Source of the DNA: Pseudomonadota bacterium
GTDB lineage: Bacteria; Pseudomonadota; Alphaproteobacteria; Puniceispirillales; Puniceispirillaceae
Length of the DNA: 64,000 nucleotides
NCBI GenBank assembly: GCA_027620495.1
Contig: JAQCEA010000003.1
Location: forward strand, 1-64,000
Direction: 5' to 3'
In this document: positions 3,185 through 49,251 of the stretch, one piece after another
How the letters are laid out: the number at the start of each line of letters is the position of its first letter
How positions within the stretch are numbered: the first letter of the stretch is position 1
The notes under the pieces: model-generated
The model's input: the letters and a program-made list of their open reading frames with translations, nothing else
Told to the model about the DNA's origin: nothing
Databases searched by the model: none
Position numbers and translations under genes: made by a program

Positions 3185-4531
3185 ATGAGTGATAAGAAAC
3201 AAAATGCAATTCCACAGACTGTTCCTGTGCAGTCTTCGACGTTCTCGCAAACGGTAAATGCTGAAATCCGCCGGGCCGCGGCAACGGGCATTTATGATAT
3301 CCGTGGTGGTGGTGCCAAACGCAAGGTACCGCATTTCGATGATCTGTTGTTTTTGGGCGCGTCAATTTCACGCTATCCGCTGGAAGGTTATCGGGAAAAA
3401 TGTGAAACCAAGGTCACATTGGGCACCAGATTTGCCAAAAACCCGATTGAGATTGATATCCCAATCACCATTGCCGGTATGAGCTTTGGATCGTTATCTG
3501 GCGGCGCAAAAGAAGCGCTTGGACGCGGTGCTAGCATGGCCGGTACATCGACCACAACCGGTGATGGCGGAATGACTGTTGAAGAACGCGGGCATTCCAG
3601 CAAGCTGGTATACCAATATTTGCCATCGCGCTATGGCATGAATCCGGATGATCTGCGCAAGGCTGATGCTATTGAAGTTGTGGTTGGCCAAGGTGCAAAG
3701 CCAGGCGGCGGCGGTATGTTGCTGGGACAAAAAATTTCTGACCGGGTAGCGAAAATGCGTAACCTGCCAAAAGGCATTGACCAGCGGTCTGCTTGTCGTC
3801 ACCCCGACTGGACCGGTCCTGATGATCTGGAAATTAAAATTCTTGAATTACGTGAAATCACCGGATGGCGTGTGCCAATTTATGTCAAGGTGGGTGGGGC
3901 GCGGCCTTATTTTGATACCACATTGGCGGTGAAGGCTGGCGCTGATGTTGTTGTGCTAGACGGTATGCAGGGCGGTACAGCGGCAACGCAAGATGTGTTT
4001 ATCGAACATGTCGGACAGCCGATCTTGGCCTGTATCCGCGAGGCGGTGCGTGCGTTGCAAGACCTTGATATGCACCGTGAAGTCCAATTGATTGTGTCTG
4101 GCGGTGTGCGCAATGGTGCGGATGTGGCAAAATGTATGGCACTCGGTGCTGATGCGGTATCGATTGGAACCGCGGCATTGATCGCGCTTGGGGATAATGA
4201 CCCGCGTTGGGAAGCCGAGTATCAAAAGCTTGGTACCACAGCCGGAGCCTATGATGACTGGCACGAGGGCAAAGACCCGGCCGGGATCACAACACAAGAC
4301 CCTGAACTGATGAAACGGTTTGACCCGGTCGAAGGTGGGCGCCGCTTAAATAATTACCTGAAAGTGATGACGCTAGAGGCGCAGACTATCGCCCGTGCCT
4401 GCGGAAAAAGTCATGTGCATAACCTTGAACCAGAGGATTTATGTGCGCTAACTTTGGAAGCGGCAGCGATGGCAAAGGTGCCGCTGGCTGGCACTGATTG
4501 GTGGCCGGGAAAGCCGGGCACTTCTTACTAG
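3185..4531 (+). CDS. glxD: GlxD: FMN-binding glutamate-synthase-like subunit
   Basis: A 448-residue protein equivalent to the FMN/synthase domain of GltB. Visible hallmarks are PITIAGMSFGSLSGGAKEAL, GQGAKPGGGGMLLGQK, the barrel strand PIYVKVGGARP and the flavin-phosphate loop VSGGVRNGADVAKCMALGA. With GlxB and GlxC it would form a three-subunit enzyme that moves the glutamine amide nitrogen, or an amine, onto a 2-oxoacid. It starts 14 bp after glxC with a good ATG. The MgsC subunit of N-methylglutamate synthase is a close homologue; no N-methylglutamate dehydrogenase (mgdABCD) genes occur in this window. Confidence 0.9.
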   Translation: MSDKKQNAIPQTVPVQSSTFSQTVNAEIRRAAATGIYDIRGGGAKRKVPHFDDLLFLGASISRYPLEGYREKCETKVTLGTRFAKNPIEIDIPITIAGMSFGSLSGGAKEALGRGASMAGTSTTTGDGGMTVEERGHSSKLVYQYLPSRYGMNPDDLRKADAIEVVVGQGAKPGGGGMLLGQKISDRVAKMRNLPKGIDQRSACRHPDWTGPDDLEIKILELREITGWRVPIYVKVGGARPYFDTTLAVKAGADVVVLDGMQGGTAATQDVFIEHVGQPILACIREAVRALQDLDMHREVQLIVSGGVRNGADVAKCMALGADAVSIGTAALIALGDNDPRWEAEYQKLGTTAGAYDDWHEGKDPAGITTQDPELMKRFDPVEGGRRLNNYLKVMTLEAQTIARACGKSHVHNLEPEDLCALTLEAAAMAKVPLAGTDWWPGKPGTSY

Positions 4532-4595
4532 GCCGGCCGTTTAAGATAAAACATATGGGAACACACACATTACGCTGTAAACATGGGGACTCACA

Positions 4596-5930
4596 ATGAC
4601 AGTTGATCTCGCATCTTATGCCAAAGAAAAAGGCATTAAATATTTTATGATCTCATTTACCGATCTGTTCGGGGGACAACGTGCAAAATTGGTGCCGGCA
4701 CAGGCCATTGCCGATATGCAGGAAGACGGCGCTGGATTTGCTGGGTTTGCGGCATGGCTGGATTTAACGCCAGCCCATCCTGATATGCTTGCGGTGCCTG
4801 ATCCGGCATCGGTTATTCAGTTGCCGTGGCAACCAGATGTCGCATGGGTGGCGGCGAATTGTGTGATGGAAGGCAAAGGTGTTGATCAGGCACCGCGCAA
4901 TGTGTTGCAGCGTCTGATTGATGAAGCCGCCGCCGAAGGCATGCATGTCAAAACTGGTGTTGAAGCTGAATATTTTCTGCTGACGCCCGATGGCAATCAG
5001 ATTTCCGACCCCTTTGATACAGCTGAAAAGCCTTGTTATGACCAGCAAGCGGTGATGCGCCGGTACGATGTGGTCAAAGAAATCTGCGATTACATGCTCG
5101 ATCTTGGATGGGGCCCGTATCAAAATGATCATGAAGATGCCAATGGCCAGTTTGAAATGAACTGGGAATTTGACGATGCTATGGCCACGGCCGATAAACA
5201 TAGCTTCTTTAAATTCATGACAAAGTCGGTTGCCGAAAAGCATGGCTATCGGGCGACATTCATGCCAAAGCCAATTGCCGGGCTGACCGGTAATGGTTGT
5301 CACGTCCATATTTCGGTATGGGACAAGCCGGGCGCCGCCGCCAAAACCAATGTGTTTGCGACCACGCCTACATCTGAAAACCAAGCATCTGAACTTGGAT
5401 TGTCGGAAAACGGGCGGCACTTCCTCGGCGGCATTATGAAACATGCCAGCGCATTGGCGGCGATTACCAACCCGACAGTCAATAGCTATAAGAGGATCAA
5501 CGCCCCGCGCACCACGTCTGGGGCCACTTGGGCGCCAAATACGGTGACATGGACGGGCAATAACAGAACGCATATGGTACGGGTGCCCGGCCCGGGCCGG
5601 TTTGAATTGCGTTTGCCGGACGGGGCGGCGAATCCATATTTGTTGCAGGCTGTGATCATTGCTGCTGGCCTTGATGGGATCCGCAGCAAGGCAGAACCAG
5701 GCAAGCGGCACGATATCGACATGTATGCCCAAGGCCATTCCGTTAGAGGCGCACCAAAACTGCCGTTAAACCTGCTTGATGCGCTACGTGAATATGACAA
5801 GGACAAATCACTCAAAGCGGCGATGGGGGATGAATTTTCAGCTGCCTATCTAAAATTGAAACAACAGGAATGGAATTCATTCGTGTCGCATTTCACGCAA
5901 TGGGAAAAAGATAACACATTGGATATTTAA
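4596..5930 (+). CDS. glnT: Type III glutamine synthetase GlnT (or gamma-glutamylmethylamide synthetase GmaS)
   Basis: A 444-residue glutamine-synthetase fold enzyme. It reads as a close relative of rhizobial GlnT: SYAKEKGIKYFMISFTDLFG at the N-terminus, GVEAEYFLL (metal-binding Glu pair), NGQFEMNWEF, GNGCHVHISVWD and RFELRLPDGAANPYLLQA. It catalyses ATP-dependent amidation of glutamate. GlnT and GmaS (methylamine plus glutamate) belong to the same subfamily and both co-occur with glxBCD/mgsABC-like genes, so the amine substrate is undecided. GGGGAC precedes ATG 4596, 64 bp after glxD. Probably the last core gene of the operon. Confidence 0.88.
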   Translation: MTVDLASYAKEKGIKYFMISFTDLFGGQRAKLVPAQAIADMQEDGAGFAGFAAWLDLTPAHPDMLAVPDPASVIQLPWQPDVAWVAANCVMEGKGVDQAPRNVLQRLIDEAAAEGMHVKTGVEAEYFLLTPDGNQISDPFDTAEKPCYDQQAVMRRYDVVKEICDYMLDLGWGPYQNDHEDANGQFEMNWEFDDAMATADKHSFFKFMTKSVAEKHGYRATFMPKPIAGLTGNGCHVHISVWDKPGAAAKTNVFATTPTSENQASELGLSENGRHFLGGIMKHASALAAITNPTVNSYKRINAPRTTSGATWAPNTVTWTGNNRTHMVRVPGPGRFELRLPDGAANPYLLQAVIIAAGLDGIRSKAEPGKRHDIDMYAQGHSVRGAPKLPLNLLDALREYDKDKSLKAAMGDEFSAAYLKLKQQEWNSFVSHFTQWEKDNTLDI

Positions 5931-33270: not shown

Positions 33271-34500
33271 TTACTTTTCAGTTTTTGAGTCAAACCCACC
33301 AAAATTTTTGAACAGGTTCGGGTCACCAAAAATGTTATTAAATCCCTGACTTCCTGTGGCTGGGCCAGATGGCGCTGTGGTCGCGCCCCCATCACCGGCA
33401 TTTTGCTGAAGTAATTTAAGCTGATCAGCAAAGTTTGATTTTTTTGCCTCATCCGCGGCCAGTATACATTCTGTTCCATACAGATTGTTTTTTACCAAAT
33501 AATTGCCGCCAGCGATCACACCAAACGCTAACAGCAGAATTAAAAACATTGATTTTGGCAACTTGATTCCAGTTTTCTGGTTTTTCATCAAACGGTCGCT
33601 TGGCATGGCCTGGTGAAGCTGCATTTGCTTGATCTTTGCAAGGCGCCTTTCCTCACGTCTTTTCAGCACCTCATAAGAGATGGCAGCGGTCAAGGTAATG
33701 GCGATAATGACCAACGCCAACGCACTGATCGCGGGGCTTATGCCCAACCGGACTTTTGAGGCAATAACGGTTGTTAAGGTCTGATCGGATAGGATGCTGA
33801 AGACCGTGGTGTTATAATTTTCAAAAGAATATAAAAATGCGATCACGGCCGAAGAGGCGATCGCCGGCATCAGGTAGGGCATCAATATTTTGAAAAATAC
33901 CTGCGTTTGGCTGGCACCTAAATCTAATGCCGCTTCTTCTTGTGTTTTGTCAAACCGTTGAAGGCGGGCGACAAAAATCAAGAAACAGTAGGTTGAGATA
34001 AAACATGTCTGCGCCAAGATCGTCAGGAACACACCATTGCGGCCAATGTCAGCCATGACGCCTCCGCCAGTCATGCTTGCAATGCGATCCCAAAGAACGA
34101 CAGTCGAAATGCCGATAACCACACCCGGAAACAACACCGGCATGATGGCCATCGAATAGAACAAAGTTCTGATTTTGCTATTCACCTGCGTTAGAACAAT
34201 TGCCGCCGCCATGCCAATTGGGACTGATAGAATGACAACCCCAAGGGCAATACGCAGGCTGGTTAAAATGCCTTCATGCAGCTTGGTGTCTGCTAACAAT
34301 CCAGCTAATCGTTGCCCGTCATAGGTGACCTTGCCTTCGGTAAACCAACGCCAGCTGAAACACTCCCACGGCGTGACAGCTGGAAACTCTGCCGAATTAA
34401 ACGCGGTTATGCTCATGATGATGAGTGGGCCGAATAAATAGGCAAAAAATATGAAAATATAAATGCCAAGCAATGCTTTGAGTAGGTGTTGAGACTTCAT
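33271..34500 (-). CDS. PotC-like ABC permease with an extra C-terminal helix and tail
   Basis: A 409-residue permease. Residues 1 to about 285 form a normal PotC-type subunit with six helices and the EAA loop EEAALDLGASQTQVFFKILM. After it comes a basic linker (LKRREERRLAKIKQ), an additional membrane helix at about 318-336 (MFLILLLAFGVIAGG) and a 70-residue tail rich in Gly, Ala, Asn and Phe. Polyamine permeases usually end near 260-290 residues, so the extension is unusual. The start overlaps the stop of the preceding permease gene (ATGA). Confidence 0.85.
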   Translation of the reverse strand: MKSQHLLKALLGIYIFIFFAYLFGPLIIMSITAFNSAEFPAVTPWECFSWRWFTEGKVTYDGQRLAGLLADTKLHEGILTSLRIALGVVILSVPIGMAAAIVLTQVNSKIRTLFYSMAIMPVLFPGVVIGISTVVLWDRIASMTGGGVMADIGRNGVFLTILAQTCFISTYCFLIFVARLQRFDKTQEEAALDLGASQTQVFFKILMPYLMPAIASSAVIAFLYSFENYNTTVFSILSDQTLTTVIASKVRLGISPAISALALVIIAITLTAAISYEVLKRREERRLAKIKQMQLHQAMPSDRLMKNQKTGIKLPKSMFLILLLAFGVIAGGNYLVKNNLYGTECILAADEAKKSNFADQLKLLQQNAGDGGATTAPSGPATGSQGFNNIFGDPNLFKNFGGFDSKTEK

Positions 34501-35408
34501 TTGACGATCTCACCAACTTTTACCCGGAACAATTTCATCATCAAAAGTACAAACACCACCGACACAAGTAACAGTAAAACTGAATAGGCAGCGCCCCGCG
34601 ACCAATTATCATTCATGTTAAACCATTGATAAATCAATTGCGTGAACCAAAAGGTGTTTGGACTGCTAAGCACCACTGGCGTGGCTAACGCGCCTGCAGT
34701 TAACATGAAAACCATGGTGCTGCCGGATGCAATGCCAGCTTTGGCGTGAGGGATCACAACACGCCAATGGGTCCGCACTGTAGAGGAACCGAGGTCTTTG
34801 GCAGCTTCGAGTTGATTGGTGTCCAATGATTCGAGTGAATTGTAGAGTGGAAACATCATCAAAAGCAGATAGGCGTAGGTCAAGCCCGTAAATAGCGCTA
34901 CATCCTGCCCAATAAAGTTGATGGCATTGTCCATTAGTCCAGCATTTATCAGCGCATTATTAATAACACCTTCGCCAGCAAACAGAATGCGCAGGGCAAA
35001 TGCGCGCAATAATTCATTGATCCAAAATGGGACAATAAGCGATACAATCAACAATCTTGCGGTTTTATGCTCGGCGACTTTGGCAATATAAAATGCGATT
35101 GGATAACAAAAGCACAAGCTAAGGATAGTGATGACGACAGCGGTCGCTAATGTTTTGAAAAAGACATTAAGGTCAACAAAATTGTAGGAATCTTTACTGG
35201 TCTCTGATCCAAATAAAAAATGTTTGTAATGCGTTAAGGTATATACATCTTCTTCACCGCCACGAAGTAGCGGCGGTAAATTTGGTCGAAATGACAGATC
35301 TAACATATAGAGCTGCGGGATGATGATCAGAAAGATGACCCAGAATGAAATCGCGATCAAAAAATAGGTCGAAATTATGGGGCCATTTTTTGAGAAAAAA
35401 TTATTCAT
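34497..35408 (-). CDS. PotB-like ABC transporter permease
   Basis: A 303-residue permease with six helices and the EAA loop LEAAKDLGSSTVRTHWRVVIPHAKAG. ATG 35408 is supported by AGGAG a few bases upstream, 11 nt after the ATPase stop; the upstream TTG at 35423 would overlap that gene. Forms the channel with the PotC-like subunit, for spermidine/putrescine-type or other amine substrates. Confidence 0.9.
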   Translation of the reverse strand: MNNFFSKNGPIISTYFLIAISFWVIFLIIIPQLYMLDLSFRPNLPPLLRGGEEDVYTLTHYKHFLFGSETSKDSYNFVDLNVFFKTLATAVVITILSLCFCYPIAFYIAKVAEHKTARLLIVSLIVPFWINELLRAFALRILFAGEGVINNALINAGLMDNAINFIGQDVALFTGLTYAYLLLMMFPLYNSLESLDTNQLEAAKDLGSSTVRTHWRVVIPHAKAGIASGSTMVFMLTAGALATPVVLSSPNTFWFTQLIYQWFNMNDNWSRGAAYSVLLLLVSVVFVLLMMKLFRVKVGEIVK

Positions 35409-35419
35409 CACAGCTCCTA

Positions 35420-36532
35420 TCAATCCACTGCGAGATTGCCTTCAGGCAGAACCACGGCTTTTTGAGCTGAAAATGTTAACTCCATGGTCTGGCCCGCAGT
35501 GAGATGATTTGTGCCTTCGGAATTTGGCACACTCAGGCGCACTTTCATTCCAGATTCTGTGGTTAAGAAGAGATTTTGCAGATGGCCCTCAAACTCAATT
35601 GAGTCCAACCGGGCAGAAAAGCTGTTTTGGATCTTTGCTTTGCTGTTTTTGATAGAAATCGATTCTGGACGCACAAATAAAATAATTTTTTGCCCGACGG
35701 TCAGCTTTTTTGACTCTTTGTGATCATTGCCGCTGATATCTGCCATAAATTTGTTGCCATCACACACCACTTCGACTTGGCGATCATTGTGCGCGGTGAC
35801 CTCACCATAAAACGGATTATTCTCGCCCACAAAACTGGCAACAAACGGCGTTTTTGGCTGTTCATAGACAGCCTGACAGGTGTCAACCTGTTCAATCCTG
35901 CCTTCGTTCATAACGGCGATACGGTCAGACATTGTCAATGCTTCGCCCTGATCATGCGTGATATAGATAAAGGTGATGCCAACACGTTTTTGGATGGCCC
36001 GAAGTTCGGATCGCATTTTTTGACGCAGTTTCAGATCAAGCGCAGAGAGCGGTTCATCAAGAAGCAAGACTTCAGGCTCGATAGCTAGGGCACGGGCGAT
36101 GGCGACCCGTTGGCGCTGTCCACCTGATAGCTCGTGGACTTTTTTATCGCCTTGACCCTCGAGCGCGACAAGCCCAAGCAATTCCTCGGCGCGCGCACGC
36201 CGATCAGCTTTTGAATGCCCCCGAACCTCAAGCGAAAATGAGATGTTATCGGCAACTGACATCAATGGAAATAGCGCTAGGTTTTGAAAAATTAACGAAG
36301 TTGGACGTTTATTCGGGCCGATGCCAGCCATGTTTTTGCCACCAATAAGCACCGTGCCTTGTGATGGTTCCAAAAAACCTGAAATGGTTCGAAGGATGGT
36401 GGTTTTGCCGCAACCAGATGGGCCAAGGAAGCTAAAAAACTCCCCCTTTTTAATCATCACGCTAACGTCTTTGGCTGCATAAAAATCGCCGAAATTAATC
36501 GATATATTTTGCAGTTCTACATCAGCACTCAT
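35420..36532 (-). CDS. PotA-like ABC transporter ATP-binding protein
   Basis: A 370-residue ATPase. Walker A GPSGCGKTT is at 37-45, Q-loop LIFQNLALFPLMS, signature LSGGQRQRVAIARAL near 137, Walker B VLLLDEPLSALD, and a C-terminal TOBE regulatory domain (VRPESISI and the following strands). The architecture is that of the PotA/FbpC group of importers. AGAGG precedes the ATG; a terminator-like hairpin lies between it and the binding-protein gene. Confidence 0.92.
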   Translation of the reverse strand: MSADVELQNISINFGDFYAAKDVSVMIKKGEFFSFLGPSGCGKTTILRTISGFLEPSQGTVLIGGKNMAGIGPNKRPTSLIFQNLALFPLMSVADNISFSLEVRGHSKADRRARAEELLGLVALEGQGDKKVHELSGGQRQRVAIARALAIEPEVLLLDEPLSALDLKLRQKMRSELRAIQKRVGITFIYITHDQGEALTMSDRIAVMNEGRIEQVDTCQAVYEQPKTPFVASFVGENNPFYGEVTAHNDRQVEVVCDGNKFMADISGNDHKESKKLTVGQKIILFVRPESISIKNSKAKIQNSFSARLDSIEFEGHLQNLFLTTESGMKVRLSVPNSEGTNHLTAGQTMELTFSAQKAVVLPEGNLAVD

Positions 36533-36573
36533 CAGTAAACCTCTGGTTAAAAAATTTTTAAAAAAAAAGGTCT

Positions 36574-36614
36574 AAAAAATCGCGCGAAAGCACCGCGGAA
36601 AATCTCGCGGCGCT
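36574..36614 (-). terminator. Terminator-like hairpin after the PotD-like gene
   Basis: On the minus strand AGCGCCGCG (36614-36606) pairs with CGCGGTGCT (36597-36589) with one G-T pair and an 8-nt loop; eight bases later come six T (36579-36574) and then a longer T stretch (36568-36561). The spacing is looser than in a classical terminator, so partial attenuation between the binding protein and the ATPase/permease genes is likely. Confidence 0.55.
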
Positions 36615-36638
36615 CTCAGCATATGATATTGAACCAGT

Positions 36639-37808
36639 TTAAGCGGTTTCAAACTTATTGGCATACTCTGCACGGGCATCCGCATACCATGGTGGCTCAG
36701 GCGGCCATGGGTTCAGCTTGGATGCTGTGTCGCCTGGATATACGGCCTGCGATATCGCCTTGGTTGCGTCTGAATAATGTTCTGACGCGCCAATCACAGC
36801 AGAATTATAGCCAATTTCATTAATGGTCTGGCCACCGACTTCAGGTGTGAAGCTATAGTTAATCAATTCATACGCTTCATCGATATTTTCAGCTTTGGCT
36901 GACATTGTAATGCCATCCACCCAAGCTAATGCACCTTCCTTGGTGGTTTGATAAGCAACTGGTTCACCAGCTTTCATCATCGACACAATCGGGCCATCCC
37001 ATGTTTGACCAACCACAACACCATCAGATGTAAAGCCTTGCTTTTGTGGATCGCCACCGGACCAGAATTTCACCAGATTACCTTTCTTAGAGATACAGTA
37101 TTCGGTGATGATCTCCCAATTTTTCCGCATGGTTGCTTCATCTTTGTAAGATGCCCAGAAATCCATCTTACCTTGATGATGCATCCAGATACCGCAACCC
37201 GTCATCATGGAATATGTTCTGCCCATCATGAAGGCGCCGCTGATGGCTGGATCAGGCTCCCAGATATCGCCAAAGCTTGGCAATCCGTTTGGAGTCCATT
37301 TATCTGTGCGCCAAGAAATCGATTCAGTACCCCAAAGTTGTGGCACCCAATGTGATCCCTTTCCGCCAAAGTTCCAGTCACGCTCACCAACAGCAACCAT
37401 GCCCGGGTTGACATTGCCGATATTAGGGATGCGCTTCATATCAAATGGTTGCAAAACCCCAAGGTTTTCCCACTGGAGTGCACGCATGTTGGTGGGGCTG
37501 GCAAGATCATAGCCGGCACCGCCGCCCGCTTTCATCTTGGAGATGATTTCACCATTGTCGCCAATTTTTGTGTGGTTGATGGTAATACCCGTTTTGGCCT
37601 TAAAATCTGCGACCACTGAGTCCGGCAAATATTCACCCCACATAAGGACATTGACTTGCCCACTCGTCGCGGCAAATGCATTTTTGACATACAGTGGTGC
37701 GATTGGTGTGAGAGCAGCTAGCGCGGCCCCACTTTTGAGCAACATACGACGGTTGAACTGTTTTGCAGCTCGCGCAGTCAAATGTTTGAGCTTAGGATTT
37801 TTACTCAT
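36639..37808 (-). CDS. PotD-like ABC transporter substrate-binding protein
   Basis: A 389-residue periplasmic protein; ATG 37808 follows a strong GGAGGAAA. The N-terminus has NRRMLLKSGAALAALTPIAP, a twin-arginine-like export signal, ending before AATSGQVNVLMWGEYLPDSV, the standard mature start of PotD/PotF proteins. The C-terminal domain ends with INEIGYNSAVIGASEHY and PPEPPWYADARAEYANKFET. It should bind a polyamine or a related cationic compound. First gene of the pot-like operon. Confidence 0.9.
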   Translation of the reverse strand: MSKNPKLKHLTARAAKQFNRRMLLKSGAALAALTPIAPLYVKNAFAATSGQVNVLMWGEYLPDSVVADFKAKTGITINHTKIGDNGEIISKMKAGGGAGYDLASPTNMRALQWENLGVLQPFDMKRIPNIGNVNPGMVAVGERDWNFGGKGSHWVPQLWGTESISWRTDKWTPNGLPSFGDIWEPDPAISGAFMMGRTYSMMTGCGIWMHHQGKMDFWASYKDEATMRKNWEIITEYCISKKGNLVKFWSGGDPQKQGFTSDGVVVGQTWDGPIVSMMKAGEPVAYQTTKEGALAWVDGITMSAKAENIDEAYELINYSFTPEVGGQTINEIGYNSAVIGASEHYSDATKAISQAVYPGDTASKLNPWPPEPPWYADARAEYANKFETA

Positions 37809-40836: not shown

Positions 40837-42204
40837 ATGCCAGAAATTCTGTCGATGAAATCACTGCGCACTGCTGTAAAAAATGGCAGCATTGATACGG
40901 TTATTACCGCCTTTCCCGATATGCAGGGGCGGCTGATGGGCAAACGGTTCCATGCGCAGTTTTTTGTTGATAATGCGTGGGAAGAAACGCATTGCTGCAA
41001 TTACCTGCTTGCCACCGATTTGGAAATGACAACCGTTGAAGGCTATCAATCAACAAGTTGGTCAGCTGGCTATGGCGATTATGTGATGCGGCCTGACCTC
41101 GACACATTATGTGTTTTGCCATGGCTTGACGCCACCGCCTTGGTATTGTGCGATCTGCTGGACCATCATACGCATGAATTAGTGCCGCACGCCCCGCGCA
41201 CCATTTTGAAACAACAGCTCAAGCGGGCGGCGGATCACGGGCTGGTCATGATGGCCGCAACCGAGCTGGAATTTTTCGTGTTTCGCGAGACCTTTGAGGC
41301 CATTCGCGATGCTGATTATCGCACGATGACAACAATCAGCCCCTATAATGAAGATTACCATATTTTTCAGACGACAAAGGAAGAAAGCCTGATGCGGCAA
41401 ATTCGCAATGGGCTTTCTGGCGCTGGTATCACTGTTGAAAACACCAAGGGTGAAGCCGATGCCGGCCAGGCTGAAATCAACGTGCATTATGCCGATGCGT
41501 TACGCATGGGGGATGTGCATGTCATGGTCAAAAACGCGGTCAAGGAAATTGCCTTTTTAAATGACCGGGCGATCACATTTCTAGCAAAATGGCATCATGA
41601 TTATGCGGGTTCATCAAGCCATATACACCAATCGCTCCGCGGCGCGCATGGCAAGGCGGTGTTTTTTGATCCGGCACAACCGCATGGCATGTCAAAAATG
41701 ATGCAAAGCTATCTTGCCGGGCTTTTGACCTATGCTGATGATACCACCTATTTTTTGGCACCCTATGTCAATTCATACAAGCGGTTCAAAGCTGGGACAT
41801 TCGCGCCAACCAAGGCGATCTGGTCAATTGATAACCGCACAGCTGGTTACCGTGTTGTTGCCGAGAACAGCCAGAATATTCGTGTTGAATGCCGGGTTGG
41901 CGGGTCTGATCTCAACCCCTATTTGGCGCTGGCAAGTCAATTGGCTGCGGGGCTGAAAGGCATTGAGGAAAATTTGACACTTGAAGCTGAGTTTACTGGT
42001 GATGCCTATCAGGCAGATGCCGCACGTTCAATCCCGGCCAGCTTGCGCGATGCGACCATCGCCCTTGATCAGTCGAAAATGCTGCGGGCGGCAATGGGGG
42101 ATGCGGTGATTGATCATTATGTGCGAGCAGCCCGCTGGGAACAGGAAGATTTTGACAGCAAGGTCACCGATTATGAGGTGCGCCGCGGATTCGAGAGAGC
42201 CTAA
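40837..42204 (+). CDS. Glutamine synthetase-like gamma-glutamyl-amine ligase (PuuA-like)
   Basis: A 455-residue GS-fold enzyme distinct from the GlnT-like one. ATP/metal blocks are intact: ATELEFFVF, ADAGQAEINVHYADA, HDYAGSSSHIHQSL, NSYKRFKAGTFAPTKAIWS and RVECRVGGSDLNPYLALA. The N-terminal region (TAFPDMQGRLMGKR) is like PuuA and other gamma-glutamyl-polyamine or -alkanolamine synthetases. The expected reaction is ATP + glutamate + amine to gamma-glutamylamide. It is followed 2 bp later by an ALDH gene and then an iron-ADH gene, so the amine probably bears a hydroxyl group that is oxidised next. Confidence 0.87.
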   Translation: MPEILSMKSLRTAVKNGSIDTVITAFPDMQGRLMGKRFHAQFFVDNAWEETHCCNYLLATDLEMTTVEGYQSTSWSAGYGDYVMRPDLDTLCVLPWLDATALVLCDLLDHHTHELVPHAPRTILKQQLKRAADHGLVMMAATELEFFVFRETFEAIRDADYRTMTTISPYNEDYHIFQTTKEESLMRQIRNGLSGAGITVENTKGEADAGQAEINVHYADALRMGDVHVMVKNAVKEIAFLNDRAITFLAKWHHDYAGSSSHIHQSLRGAHGKAVFFDPAQPHGMSKMMQSYLAGLLTYADDTTYFLAPYVNSYKRFKAGTFAPTKAIWSIDNRTAGYRVVAENSQNIRVECRVGGSDLNPYLALASQLAAGLKGIEENLTLEAEFTGDAYQADAARSIPASLRDATIALDQSKMLRAAMGDAVIDHYVRAARWEQEDFDSKVTDYEVRRGFERA

Positions 42205-42206
42205 TC

Positions 42207-43589
42207 ATGTCAGTAGAGTTAAAATGTATTTCGCCAGTTGATGGCACGGTTTACGCTGTGCGTGAGGCATTGTCGCTTGCGGTCGCCAGACAAGCTGTTG
42301 CCAAGGCGCATGCGGCACAGGCTGAATGGGCGGCGCGCCCACTTGCCGAACGCATAGATTTGGTGCAAGCGGCGGTGGCTATTATCGGCCAGCAGAATGA
42401 TGATATTGTGCCGGAATTGGCGTGGCAAATGGGACGGCCGATCCGCTATGGCGGGGAATTTGGCGGCTTTCAAGAACGTACCAACTATATGGCAGATATT
42501 GCACCGCGCAGTCTGGCGCCAATCGCGATTGAAGATAGCGACAAATTTCAGCGCTATATAAAGCGGGTGCCGCATGGTGCGGTGCTGGTGGTCGCACCGT
42601 GGAATTATCCCTATATGACAGCGATTAACGCGGTGGCCCCGGCGCTGATCGCTGGTAATGTGGTGTTGTTGAAACATGCCACGCAAACCATTCTGGTTGG
42701 CGAACGGCTGGCACAGGCATTTCACAAGGCGGGCGTGCCAGATGCCGTGTTCCAGAATTTATATCTGGATCATGCCACAACCGCACAATTGATTGCCGAT
42801 AAATCATTTGGCTTTGTGAATTTCACCGGGTCAGTCGATGGCGGCCGCGCCATTGAACAGGCAGCGGCAGGCAGTTTTACCGGGCTTGGGCTTGAACTTG
42901 GTGGCAAAGACCCGGGCTATGTTATGCATGACGCTGATGTTGATGCGGCCGCTGAAACGCTGATTGATGGGGCGATGTTTAATTCTGGTCAGTGCTGTTG
43001 CGGTATAGAACGAATTTATGTAGCTGACGCCCTGTTTGATCAATTCGTTGAAAAAGCGGTGAGCATTGTGAATGGTTATCGGCTGGGCAACCCACTTGAC
43101 CATGACACCACATTGGGGCCAATGGCGCATGAACGCTTTGCCGCATTGGTGCGTGGTCAAACTGATGATGCGGTGTCGCGTGGGGCGCGGGCGTTGATTG
43201 ATCCGGCGGCATTCCCGGCGAATAAAGGGGCGTATTTGATGCCGCAGATTCTGATTGATGTCGATCACACGATGCCGGTGATGCGCGAAGAAAGCTTTGG
43301 CCCGGTGGTTGGCATTATGAAAGTCAAAGATGATGCAGAGGCCATCAGGCTGATGAATGACAGCCACTATGGGCTGACCGCGGCGCTATGGACGCGTGAT
43401 CTCGACCGGGCTACGCATGTCGCCGATCAATTGGAAACAGGCACGGTATTTATGAATAGATGTGATTATCTTGACCCGGCATTATGCTGGACTGGCTGTA
43501 AAGATACCGGGCGTGGTGGCAGCTTGTCGGAAATTGGGTTTCACAATTTAACCCGGCCGAAATCTTATCATATGAAAAAGGGTTTATAA
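42207..43589 (+). CDS. NAD(P)-dependent aldehyde dehydrogenase
   Basis: A 460-residue ALDH of the short succinate-semialdehyde-dehydrogenase-like group. The active-site motif is FNSGQCCCGIERIYV, with three cysteines at residues 263-265 (the second at the catalytic position), and the base Glu is in LGLELGGKDPGYV. APWNYPYM and FTGSVDGGRA are the cofactor loops. It is flanked by GS-like and iron-ADH genes with 2-bp gaps, so translation is coupled. It most likely oxidises the aldehyde made by the neighbouring ADH to a gamma-glutamyl amino acid. Confidence 0.9.
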   Translation: MSVELKCISPVDGTVYAVREALSLAVARQAVAKAHAAQAEWAARPLAERIDLVQAAVAIIGQQNDDIVPELAWQMGRPIRYGGEFGGFQERTNYMADIAPRSLAPIAIEDSDKFQRYIKRVPHGAVLVVAPWNYPYMTAINAVAPALIAGNVVLLKHATQTILVGERLAQAFHKAGVPDAVFQNLYLDHATTAQLIADKSFGFVNFTGSVDGGRAIEQAAAGSFTGLGLELGGKDPGYVMHDADVDAAAETLIDGAMFNSGQCCCGIERIYVADALFDQFVEKAVSIVNGYRLGNPLDHDTTLGPMAHERFAALVRGQTDDAVSRGARALIDPAAFPANKGAYLMPQILIDVDHTMPVMREESFGPVVGIMKVKDDAEAIRLMNDSHYGLTAALWTRDLDRATHVADQLETGTVFMNRCDYLDPALCWTGCKDTGRGGSLSEIGFHNLTRPKSYHMKKGL

Positions 43590-43591
43590 CG

Positions 43592-44746
43592 ATGACATTA
43601 ACAACGAATTGGTCTTATCCAACGACCATCTGGTTTGGCGCTGGCCGGATTGCCGAACTTGCCAAAGCCTGCCAGCACGCGCGGATTAAAAAGCCGTTGC
43701 TGGTCACAGATAAAGGTCTGGCTAATTTACCTATTACCCAAAATGCGCTCGCCAGCCTGACGGCAGCCGGGCTTGATGTGGGGCTGTTTGCCGAGGTTGA
43801 TCCCAACCCCACCGAAACCAATATGCATGCCGGGCTAGAGGCCTTTAAAGCGGGTGGCCATGACGGGGTGATCGCCTTTGGCGGGGGGTCAGGTCTTGAC
43901 CTTGGCAAGGTGATTGCCTTTATGGTGGGGCAAACCCGCCCGGTTTGGGATTTTGAAGATATTGGCGATTGGTGGACGCGTGCCAACGCCGATGTGATTG
44001 CCCCGATTATTGCGGTGCCGACCACAGCTGGCACCGGATCAGAAGTGGGGCGGGCGTCGGTGATTACCAATTCACAAACCGCCGAAAAGAAAATTATTTT
44101 CCATCCAAAAATTTTGCCAAGCGTGGTGATTTGCGACCCTGAGCTGACCGTTGGCATGCCGAATTTCATCACCGCCGGGACCGGTATGGATGCCTTTGCC
44201 CATTGCCTAGAGGCGTTTTCATCACCGCATTACCACCCGATGAGCCAAGGCATTGCCCTAGAAGGTATGCGGCTGGTCAAAGAAAATCTGACAGCCGTTT
44301 ATGATGATCCCGCCAATATTACCGGGCGCGCCCATATGATGAGCGCGGCAATGATGGGCGCGACAGCCTTTCAAAAAGGCCTTGGTGCAATCCACGCATT
44401 GTCGCATCCGATTGGGGCGATTTATCATACCCATCATGGCACTACAAATGCTGTTGTGATGCAGGCGGTGATGCGGTTTAACCGAAGCGAAATCGAAGAC
44501 CGGTTTGTGGCCGCGGCGCGCTATCTTGGTATTGAGGGCGGGTTTGATGGCTTTTATGATTTTGTTGGCGGGCTTGTTGACCATTTAAACATTCCAAAAA
44601 GCCTGACTGAGCTGGGACTTCGAGACCTTGGCGATGCTGATCTTGAGCGGATCGTTGCGGCGGCACTTACCGACCCAAGTGCGGGGGGCAACCCGCGGGC
44701 AATGACCAGCGAAAACACACGCGCGCTTCTTGAAAGCTGTTTTTAG
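43592..44746 (+). CDS. Iron-containing (group III) alcohol dehydrogenase
   Basis: A 384-residue group III ADH. The NAD(P)-binding GGGSGLDLGK and PTTAGTGSEVGRASVI are present, and the iron ligands lie in GMDAFAHCLEAF, IHALSHPIGAIYHTHHGT. Such enzymes act on short alcohols, diols and amino alcohols. Third gene of the GS-ALDH-ADH operon, which ends here with a hairpin. Confidence 0.9.
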   Translation: MTLTTNWSYPTTIWFGAGRIAELAKACQHARIKKPLLVTDKGLANLPITQNALASLTAAGLDVGLFAEVDPNPTETNMHAGLEAFKAGGHDGVIAFGGGSGLDLGKVIAFMVGQTRPVWDFEDIGDWWTRANADVIAPIIAVPTTAGTGSEVGRASVITNSQTAEKKIIFHPKILPSVVICDPELTVGMPNFITAGTGMDAFAHCLEAFSSPHYHPMSQGIALEGMRLVKENLTAVYDDPANITGRAHMMSAAMMGATAFQKGLGAIHALSHPIGAIYHTHHGTTNAVVMQAVMRFNRSEIEDRFVAAARYLGIEGGFDGFYDFVGGLVDHLNIPKSLTELGLRDLGDADLERIVAAALTDPSAGGNPRAMTSENTRALLESCF

Positions 44747-46921: not shown

Positions 46922-48262
46922 ATGCGGGCCGGAATTATAACAACACCCTATTGGTGGGAGGCGGCCCCACCAGCCGAAGCGGCGCCAGCTGAATGGCAAA
47001 GCCGTGCCGATGTTGTCATTATCGGTGGTGGCTTTACCGGATTTGGCGCGGCCATTCCGTTGGCGCGGGCTGGCCTCAGCGTGGTGATTGTTGAAAAAGA
47101 TAAGATTGGCGCTGGGGCATCGACCCGTAATGGGGGCATCACCAGTGGAAATTTGCGCCACTCTTATGACCATTTGGCAAAAAAATTTGGCCCAGAAAAA
47201 GCCGCTAAATTTTATCAAGAAGCCCACACTGCGCGGCAGGATCTGATTAATTTTATCAGTGATGAACATATTGATTGTGATCTTCAGCTTTGCGGTCGGT
47301 TCGTTGGGGCAACAAAGCCGCACGCGCTGGCAAATATGCAACGTGAGGCCGAAAATCTGTCAAAAGCCTCCGGCGTTGCGCCAATTTTGTATGATAAAGC
47401 TGGCGTTGCTGCGCATATTGACAGTGATAAATATTGCGGCGGTGTCTGGCGCGACGATATTGGTGGGATACATCCGGCTAAATTGCTTGCTGAAATGCAC
47501 CGGATTGCAGCTTCGGCGGGCGTTCTGGTATTTACTGGTGTGGCGGTGTCTTCGCTGCGGCGTATCGATGCTGGGGCAGATGCGTCATTTACTGTGGATA
47601 CCACAAAAGGTCCAATTACCGCCGGGCATGTGATTACCGCGACAAATGCCTATAGCGATTCAGGTGTGCCGTGGTTGCGCCGCCGGTTGGTGCCGGTGAT
47701 CTCTGAAATGATTGCCACCGAAGAACTCGGAGAAAATCGGGTGCGAAGCCTGATGCCAAGCAAAAGCATGTATAGTGAAAGCCTGCAGCTTGGCCATTAT
47801 TTTCGGCCATCGCCTGATGGCAAACGGATTTTGCTTGGCGGCCGCCGGATGGATGCTGACCCGGCCAAAGCCGCTGAACGGTTGCGGGCTGGGCTGGTGA
47901 CTATTCTGCCAGATTTGGCAGATTGCGCCATCACCCATCACTGGTTTGGGTTTGTCGCCTTTCCGTTTGACCAACTGCCAAAGCTGACCGTGCATGATGG
48001 GGTTATTTACCCGGCTGGCTATTGCGGGTCTGGTACCGTGTGGGCGCGTTGGTTGGGGCAAAAAGCGGCACAGATGGTGCTTGCTGATTTGGCCGGTTCA
48101 GCGGCGCCCAGGCCAAAGCCTGCCCGTTCAGTTTCATCTGATTCGGTGTTTGCCGATTTGCCGTTCCGTAGCATGCCATTCTATTCTGGAGAGCCATGGT
48201 TTTTAACGATTGCGATGCGTTTTTATGCGCTGAAAGACAAAATGGCTGACCTGAAAACATAG
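46922..48262 (+). CDS. FAD-dependent oxidoreductase, gamma-glutamylputrescine oxidase-like (PuuB-like)
   Basis: A 446-residue DAO-superfamily flavoprotein. FAD motif VVIIGGGFTGFGAA is at residues 31-44, and KIGAGASTRNGGITSGNLRHSYD is the substrate-side flavin loop. The C-terminal HHWFGFVAFPFDQLPKL, YPAGYCGSGTVWARWLG and PFRSMPFYSGEPWFLTIAM, then RFYALKDKM match the layout of E. coli PuuB to its very end. It would oxidise a gamma-glutamylated or N-alkylated amine. It is not an adjacent duplicate of the oxidase at 22425-23774, which differs in many places. Followed 125 bp later by the DUF1989 gene. Confidence 0.87.
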   Translation: MRAGIITTPYWWEAAPPAEAAPAEWQSRADVVIIGGGFTGFGAAIPLARAGLSVVIVEKDKIGAGASTRNGGITSGNLRHSYDHLAKKFGPEKAAKFYQEAHTARQDLINFISDEHIDCDLQLCGRFVGATKPHALANMQREAENLSKASGVAPILYDKAGVAAHIDSDKYCGGVWRDDIGGIHPAKLLAEMHRIAASAGVLVFTGVAVSSLRRIDAGADASFTVDTTKGPITAGHVITATNAYSDSGVPWLRRRLVPVISEMIATEELGENRVRSLMPSKSMYSESLQLGHYFRPSPDGKRILLGGRRMDADPAKAAERLRAGLVTILPDLADCAITHHWFGFVAFPFDQLPKLTVHDGVIYPAGYCGSGTVWARWLGQKAAQMVLADLAGSAAPRPKPARSVSSDSVFADLPFRSMPFYSGEPWFLTIAMRFYALKDKMADLKT

Positions 48263-48301
48263 CATCTTTGGCATGATAGAGCGGCCATTAATGATGCCAA
48301 T

Positions 48302-48316
48302 GGGGGGTATTCCCCC
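48302..48316 (+). other. G5/C5 stem-loop upstream of the DUF1989 gene
   Basis: GGGGG (48303-48307) and CCCCC (48312-48316) flank a TATT loop, an unusually GC-pure tetraloop hairpin in an otherwise mixed gap. TTGGCAT (about 48268) and ATGCCAA (about 48293) just before it form a second, looser stem. The pair could terminate the oxidase transcript or regulate the next gene; there is no T-run. Confidence 0.5.
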
Positions 48317-48387
48317 TATCGAAATTCTGCACAAAACCCGGCATAGTGATAAAAAAACCGCCGGCACATATGATGGGAGTTGCGATT

Positions 48388-49251
48388 ATGAAATATATCA
48401 ATAAGGCGCATATGCCAGATGATGCCGATGCGCGGCGCGGCGTACCGCCGGTCATCTGTTACCCCACTGACAGTTTGCCAGCTACCGGCGCTAGCATTTT
48501 GGACGCCGCGCGGCAATCGCTTAAAAAAACTGGCGAGGTGCTTGTGCCGCCGCGTGAGGCACGCTGTTTCGAAGTGCCAGCAGGCCATTTCTTTCGAATT
48601 GTGAGTGTTGAGGGTTCGCAGGTCGGAGATTTGAATTTATGGCAGGCAGACAATCTTGACGAGCGGTTTTATTCAGGCAAAACCCGCGCCTTGCATGGCA
48701 CGCATCTGTCGACCGGAGACCGGCTATGGTCAACTTTCCCGTTTATGCGGCCATTGGCAAGGATCACCTATGACACACTTGACTGGTATGGTTGGGACGA
48801 AGATGGCGGTTCTGTGCATGACGTAATTGGCACAAGATGTGACCCCTATACCGCCAAGCTACTGGCTGATGTTGACTATCACCATTGCTGTCATTCTAAT
48901 TTGATCCGGGCGCTGGCGGCGCATCGCCATCTGGATTTTGCCGATGCAGAACTGTTGGTTCATGATGTTTTGAACGTGTTTATGTGTACCGGCTTTACCC
49001 GCGATACGCATCAATATTTCATGAAGGCCAGCCCGGTACGGCCCGGTGATTTTCTGGAATTTTTTGCCGAAACGGATCTTTTAGGCGGGCTTTCAGCCTG
49101 TCCAGGCGGGGATTGTTCTGCAGAACATTCATCGGATGCGGCACGGTGTTACCCGTTGTTGGTCGAACTGTTTAAATCAAATGATCCGGCACTTGCCGAT
49201 TATCGACCATTGCCAGCAAGCGGCTATGGACGACAGCATCGCGACCCATAA
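48388..49251 (+). CDS. DUF1989 (urea-carboxylase-associated) family protein
   Basis: A 287-residue protein from ATG 48388, preceded by GGGAG. DUF1989 hallmarks are VPPREARCFEVPAGHFFRIV, GSQVGDLNLWQADNLDERF, KTRALHGTHLSTGDRLWS and the metal-site-like DYHHCCHSNLIRAL and SACPGGDCS. In guanidine-utilising bacteria two DUF1989 subunits (CgdAB) form carboxyguanidine deiminase; here there is one, longer, gene and no urea or guanidine carboxylase beside it. The presence of an amidinotransferase and a creatinase-fold protein in the window makes a guanidino substrate attractive but unproved. Confidence 0.8.
   Translation: MKYINKAHMPDDADARRGVPPVICYPTDSLPATGASILDAARQSLKKTGEVLVPPREARCFEVPAGHFFRIVSVEGSQVGDLNLWQADNLDERFYSGKTRALHGTHLSTGDRLWSTFPFMRPLARITYDTLDWYGWDEDGGSVHDVIGTRCDPYTAKLLADVDYHHCCHSNLIRALAAHRHLDFADAELLVHDVLNVFMCTGFTRDTHQYFMKASPVRPGDFLEFFAETDLLGGLSACPGGDCSAEHSSDAARCYPLLVELFKSNDPALADYRPLPASGYGRQHRDP

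Follow-up and report, generated by a model that had tools for sequence, protein, structure and literature searches.

Among the systems described for the bacterial use of ethanolamine, the operon of Phaeobacter MED193 (Westermann et al. 2023, PMC10132767) offers a point of comparison for the locus considered here, a run of three genes at positions 40837-44746 of a 64,000-nucleotide stretch of DNA ("the window"; contig JAQCEA010000003.1, positions 1 to 64,000 of the forward strand) from a SAR116 alphaproteobacterium of the family Puniceispirillaceae (assembly GCA_027620495.1). In the excerpts of that paper drawn upon here, a scope that applies equally to the other papers cited, the MED193 operon comprises genes for RpiR, a gamma-glutamylglycine amidohydrolase, a TRAP transporter (EtoVWX), and a gamma-glutamylase with two dehydrogenases. 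They are listed across MED193_10021-10056 in the order RpiR, GGAH, EtoVWX, ETAGA, GAADDH and GETADH, with tags 10046, 10051 and 10056 denoting an ethanolamine gamma-glutamylase, a gamma-glutamyl aldehyde dehydrogenase and a gamma-glutamylethanolamide dehydrogenase, respectively. Proteins of this operon increase on phosphorylethanolamine, and the Kd of EtoX for ethanolamine is 7.9 uM (PMC10132767). The same authors used Csal_0678, the ethanolamine-binding EtoX homologue of Chromohalobacter salexigens, and cite Vetting et al. 2015 as having demonstrated that the genes are functional in C. salexigens and Agrobacterium tumefaciens (PMC10132767). A further counterpart is the GlnA4 cluster of Streptomyces coelicolor (SCO1611-SCO1615), which includes a gamma-glutamylethanolamide synthetase, two dehydrogenases and a hydrolase; GlnA4 itself is a characterised gamma-glutamylethanolamide synthetase, and the route downstream of it is predicted (PMC6529630, PMC9397018).

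The window lies on one (C45) of the 48 contigs of a 2.4 Mb host genome with a completeness rating of 100%, whose nearest named relative, among the matches listed, is an uncultured alphaproteobacterium of the SAR116 cluster (L007) with a ligase 92% identical. Three intact open reading frames (ORFs) on the plus strand, with a gap of 2 bp between each, encode in order a glutamine synthetase (GS)-like gamma-glutamyl ligase of 455 aa, probably a gamma-glutamylethanolamide synthetase (40837-42204; Pfam PF00120, Gln-synt_C, 310.8 bits; structure match 5dm3); an aldehyde dehydrogenase (ALDH) of 460 aa, probably acting on gamma-glutamyl-aminoacetaldehyde (42207-43589; PF00171, Aldedh, 386.4 bits); and an iron-containing (group III) alcohol dehydrogenase (ADH) of 384 aa, probably a gamma-glutamylethanolamide dehydrogenase (43592-44746; PF00465, Fe-ADH, 168.1 bits, and PF25137, ADH_Fe_C, 137 bits). 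On comparative grounds we consider it likely that these genes form the enzyme core of the ethanolamine gamma-glutamylation operon already described, and comparison points with similar confidence to ethanolamine as the main substrate. The order of ligase, ALDH and ADH and the reactions proposed for them are shared with the MED193 operon, known here by its published description rather than by direct comparison of sequences; unlike it, the window is without RpiR, gamma-glutamylglycine amidohydrolase and EtoVWX. The locus is classed with this established type of operon for its three enzymes alone, the hydrolase, transporter and regulator that mark the complete operon being absent from it.

By analogy with these systems, the ligase would use ATP to join the gamma-carboxyl group of glutamate to the amine of ethanolamine, giving gamma-glutamylethanolamide, the free hydroxyl of which the iron ADH would oxidise to an aldehyde; the ALDH would convert the aldehyde to gamma-glutamylglycine, and a hydrolase encoded elsewhere in the cell would split this product into glutamate and glycine. 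We infer the substrate, each of these steps, uptake and the final hydrolysis from comparative analysis. An earlier, sequence-only reading of this DNA had proposed the same succession of ligation and two oxidations; its chemistry agrees with the published scheme for the same gene order and with the nearest structure of the ligase, Csal_0679, while the substrate is drawn from relatives. Its further suggestion, that no operon of this make-up had been described, falls because the gene order is already in print for MED193 (PMC10132767).

The distribution of the arrangement was surveyed in the best 80 of 594 confirmed related loci (among the matches listed). L007 and L129, which are apparently a single contig (equal length and position), are counted once. 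Thirty-five of the 80 loci span at most 20 kb, so that absences from them mean little, and the other 45 are longer. The profiles used for RpiR, the hydrolase, TRAP proteins and the permease derive from clusters of proteins in these 80 loci themselves; the clustering, disturbed by antisense ORFs, served only to seed them. Ligase, ALDH and ADH occur together in 52/80 loci, in every case on one strand and in this order, a degree of sharing which argues that the arrangement is not due to chance. Together with the intact ORFs and Pfam matches, this count establishes the operon with 2-bp gaps as real. Gene by gene, the 80 loci contain ADH in 66, ALDH in 56, the hydrolase in 47, RpiR in 44, and a TRAP binding protein or permease in 53; in 38, the three enzymes are joined by RpiR, a hydrolase belonging to the N-formylglutamate amidohydrolase family, and a transporter that is either a TRAP system or an amino acid permease. 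Among loci longer than 20 kb, ALDH and ADH are both present in 42/45, and hydrolase and transporter accompany them in 35/45. The linkage is not strict: ALDH is missing beside ligase and ADH in 11 of the 80 loci, the ligase stands by itself in 6, and in a few up to about 1 kb separates the ligase from the next of the three genes, the RpiR gene being located there in L023. Ten gammaproteobacterial contigs (L008-L012, L014, L015, L017, L018 and L021) carry ADH directly after the ligase, with no ALDH of this family found in the stretch, four of these stretches ending less than 0.5 kb past the ADH gene.

Five annotated plasmid loci (of 34 matching records) all have the gene for N-formylglutamate amidohydrolase first, then those for the ligase, the ALDH and the iron ADH (5/5), with TRAP genes in two, an amino acid permease in one and neither in two; in one of the last two an EamA-family transporter gene comes after ADH. 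Among the five, the locus of Paracoccus denitrificans PD1222 has genes for RpiR, N-formylglutamate amidohydrolase, three TRAP components, GS, ALDH and iron ADH in one run. Another, on plasmid pAA03 of Aminobacter aminovorans (L134), which is typed as conjugative, is an RpiR-hydrolase-ligase-ALDH-ADH cluster, where it is flanked by genes for flavin-dependent oxidoreductases and by bhc (glyoxylate) genes.

Both sequence and predicted structure place the ligase with the C. salexigens protein. Its best solved relative by sequence is 5dm3 (621.7 bits), followed by 11zs (549.3 bits) and others below 150, and its predicted model (mean pLDDT 79.5, pTM 0.85, with low confidence in stretches 56-79 and 172-182) also matches 5dm3 best (Z 50.2, rmsd 1.5, 373 residues aligned, 59% identity). 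That entry is titled as a glutamine synthetase from Chromohalobacter salexigens, Csal_0679, TARGET EFI-550015, and Csal_0679 is one locus tag removed from Csal_0678; the likeness to this locus, itself known through excerpts of the papers that cite it, covers the ligase alone. In a tree of 100 of 120 rows (20 having been left out as short copies, among them two real family ligases, G047 and G055), the window ligase clusters with that of L116, from a genome of the same family possessing the full set of genes (SH-aLRT 91, by a quick method). The top rank of 5dm3 by sequence and by structure, together with this grouping, marks the protein as a ligase of the Csal_0679 type. It falls under the curated cut-off of all four NCBIfam families that it matched, including the type I and type III glutamate-ammonia ligases (TIGR00653 and TIGR03105; 214 and 218 bits against 429 and 470). 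In the Puu pathway for putrescine, the GS homologue PuuA gamma-glutamylates the amine and an amine oxidase step follows. The window ligase differs from PuuA, scoring 180.4 bits against a cut-off of 650 for gamma-glutamylputrescine synthetase (NF045547), so that the label "PuuA-like" given by the sequence-only reading had to be abandoned as a subfamily assignment.

Residues of the ligase motifs (E143/E145, E206/E213, H262, R339 and E351/R353) are conserved in 99-100 of 100 alignment rows. In a comparison with the host's own GlnA (ignoring row L003, a neighbouring aminotransferase), the ligase retains the Glu, His and Arg of the conserved motifs and has no counterpart of the Asp-Gly-Ser-Ser stretch; in addition, the position of the flap Glu of canonical GS is occupied by Phe in 100/100 related ligases. 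In GS, the positions that are conserved or altered here would have roles in binding metal, in binding ammonia and in its deprotonation, and the Phe of the flap and missing Asp-Gly-Ser-Ser would fit an amine substrate other than ammonia. The ALDH has the Glu of LELGG, the Cys of GQxC and the Asn of PWNYP conserved in 66/66 rows. D200, H204 and H272 of the ADH are conserved in 77/77, and of the histidines of its YHTHHG motif, H282 in 77/77, H281 in 76/77 and H279 in 4/77 only. The earlier claim of complete active sites agrees with the presence of catalytic motifs in all three enzymes, the roles of the residues being presumed.

Several points weigh against assigning these genes to ethanolamine. 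The MED193 assays with ethanolamine, as excerpted, concern EtoX and not the three enzymes (PMC10132767), and the excerpted Streptomyces study describes the C. salexigens route as an in silico prediction, at odds with the account given in PMC10132767 (PMC6529630). GlnA4 is encoded together with a short-chain dehydrogenase (PMC6529630), and it is to this enzyme that the alcohol step is given in S. coelicolor, in contrast to the iron ADH of the window; an iron ADH alone therefore does not fix the substrate. Comparison of the window proteins with the RpiR, hydrolase and TRAP/permease profiles found none of these partners, the window being the only part of the genome searched for RpiR. Across the host genome, no ortholog of the operon-type hydrolase was found, the sole PF05013 protein scoring 23 bits as compared with 339-437 for members; nor was one of EtoX, the four DctP proteins reaching 20-35 bits as compared with 570-733 for full-length members. 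The family of the rhizobial permease (PF13520) had 0 matches in the host, while 11/14 control genomes were matched, and the rhizobial operon permease itself also gave 0 matches there, in a search run without a positive control.

These negative results bear most directly on the notion, implied by the sequence-only reading, of a self-sufficient route: the operon as predicted would stop at gamma-glutamylglycine, and no ortholog of the hydrolase or transporter was found in the genome to complete it. The sole PF05013 protein of the host is nearer to HutG (89.7 of 278.75 bits). Either a GGT-family protein (482.6 bits) or one of four Peptidase_C26 matches (the best at 54 bits) could be a candidate for cleaving gamma-glutamylglycine.

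A comparable scarcity of partners is found across the family, as judged by single-sequence searches with strict cut-offs in genomes many of which are incomplete. The ligase was detected in 18/61 family genomes (E 1e-100), the operon hydrolase in 1/61 (E 1e-40) and an EtoX-type protein in 2/61 (E 1e-60), in one of these as two pieces; among the 28 genomes with a completeness of 90% or more and a contamination of no more than 5%, the respective numbers are 6, 1 and 2. The ligase most like that of the window outside its genus (78% identical) belongs to G015 (locus L116), the genome of this family in which the set is complete, and the ligase in other members of the window's genus is of a more distant type (58-59% identity). 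This pattern would fit a history in which the transporter and hydrolase genes were lost or separated in the window's lineage; as an alternative, genes may have been exchanged between lineages. Fifteen family loci were fetched, in which ligase, ALDH and ADH occur together in 8, the ALDH is cut by a contig end in 2, ligase and ADH are found in 1, and the ligase is without close ALDH or ADH in 4. We raise, as a tentative and rather doubtful proposal, that in much of SAR116 the core has become uncoupled from its importer and hydrolase, in which case new ones might serve, gamma-glutamylglycine might be a useful product in itself, or another amino alcohol might be the substrate.

The last of these options, applied to the window, is the best surviving alternative to ethanolamine, although we regard it as unlikely: the same chemistry would act on another amino alcohol (such as 3-aminopropanol, isopropanolamine or an N-methylated ethanolamine) following loss of the importer and hydrolase. 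The failure to find orthologs of either in the host genome is compatible with such a shift, as are the diverse partners of related genes in SAR116, which suggest that substrates may differ within the family. Three loci of the window's genus (L124:6743-13406, L126:6840-13504 and L128:1-6145) carry genes for a GMC oxidoreductase and an enolase-superfamily (MR/MLE) protein followed by the ligase-ALDH-ADH core, with Pfam matches in all three; the L126 proteins are nearest to choline dehydrogenase and to sugar-acid dehydratases, both under the cut-off. This locus type is perhaps a variant operon with another substrate. In another SAR116 genus (L123:3910-6130, L125:9196-11395 and L127:9742-11935), the ligase is without close ALDH or ADH and has, within about 65 bp downstream, a gene for a SAM methyltransferase, 86-100% identical among the three and weakly like sarcosine/dimethylglycine N-methyltransferase (67 of 550 bits). 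In the window itself, however, genes scanned within about 5 kb include no GMC oxidoreductase, enolase or methyltransferase, the ligase clusters with that of the full-operon locus L116, and no change is seen in the motif residues sampled.

A polyamine route, combining a PuuA-type synthetase with two neighbouring features, is considerably less probable still. A Pot-like (polyamine-type) ABC transporter encoded by four genes on the minus strand (33271-37808) ends 3 kb upstream of the operon, and a gene for a DAO-family FAD oxidoreductase (46922-48262) begins 2.2 kb downstream, both being kept in the sister contig L007. The ligase is nevertheless no PuuA equivalog, and we know of no step in the Puu route that an iron ADH would fit. 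Nor is the FAD gene, which lies two genes away, a regular partner of the ligase: its close relatives in the loci compared are confined to L007/L129, followed by L122 (35%), L126 (34%) and L045 (31%), and its top NCBIfam match (146 of 633 bits) does not make it a clear PuuB. Because two genes, one of HupE/UreJ type on the opposite strand and one for a DUF4198 protein, lie between it and the operon, its candidacy as a pathway member was rejected for now. A DUF1989 gene follows it (46922-49251 for the pair), and the pair is kept downstream of the operon in L007.

The Pot-like transporter could also be viewed, as an unproven candidate, as a replacement importer of ethanolamine; it is probably not part of the operon. 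Its binding protein (36639-37808) is found at E 1e-100 in 3/61 family genomes; these are the very three that carry the window-type ligase, a suggestive co-occurrence among what are, however, close relatives. It is also found in 16/385 sampled genomes of the class, the window's own included; at the 15 other loci, ligase, ALDH and ADH were all absent from the stretch read, three of these stretches being cut short where the contig ends. Among the 80 ligase loci, L082 (Litoreibacter), without TRAP and permease genes, has upstream a four-gene transporter 43-58% identical to that of the window, adjoining two FAD-protein genes on the opposite strand; the binding proteins of the two transporters are not particularly close.

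That the ligase is an ordinary glutamine synthetase beside unrelated oxidoreductases, as its GS fold and metal motifs would allow, is highly improbable given the much better GlnA encoded elsewhere in the genome (L001, 455.5 bits), the alteration of positions that we take to form the ammonia site, and the linkage kept in 52/80 loci. Elsewhere in the window (3185-5930), a gene with a glutamate synthase domain adjoins a second GS-like gene in a separate cluster of GS homologues. A scan of the whole window against Rfam at gathering scores gave no RNA match.

The route itself being already in print, the remaining interest of this locus is in the importer and hydrolase not found in SAR116, a group that no paper found in the literature from 2018 on joins with ethanolamine. 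Marine bacteria can draw nitrogen and carbon from the ethanolamine of membrane lipids, the use of which in the ocean has been mapped by means of EtoX, as reported in the excerpts of PMC10132767. If SAR116 bacteria do keep the enzymes without EtoX, surveys relying upon EtoX only would miss them, and the SAR116 importer and gamma-glutamylglycine hydrolase would become specific, testable gaps.

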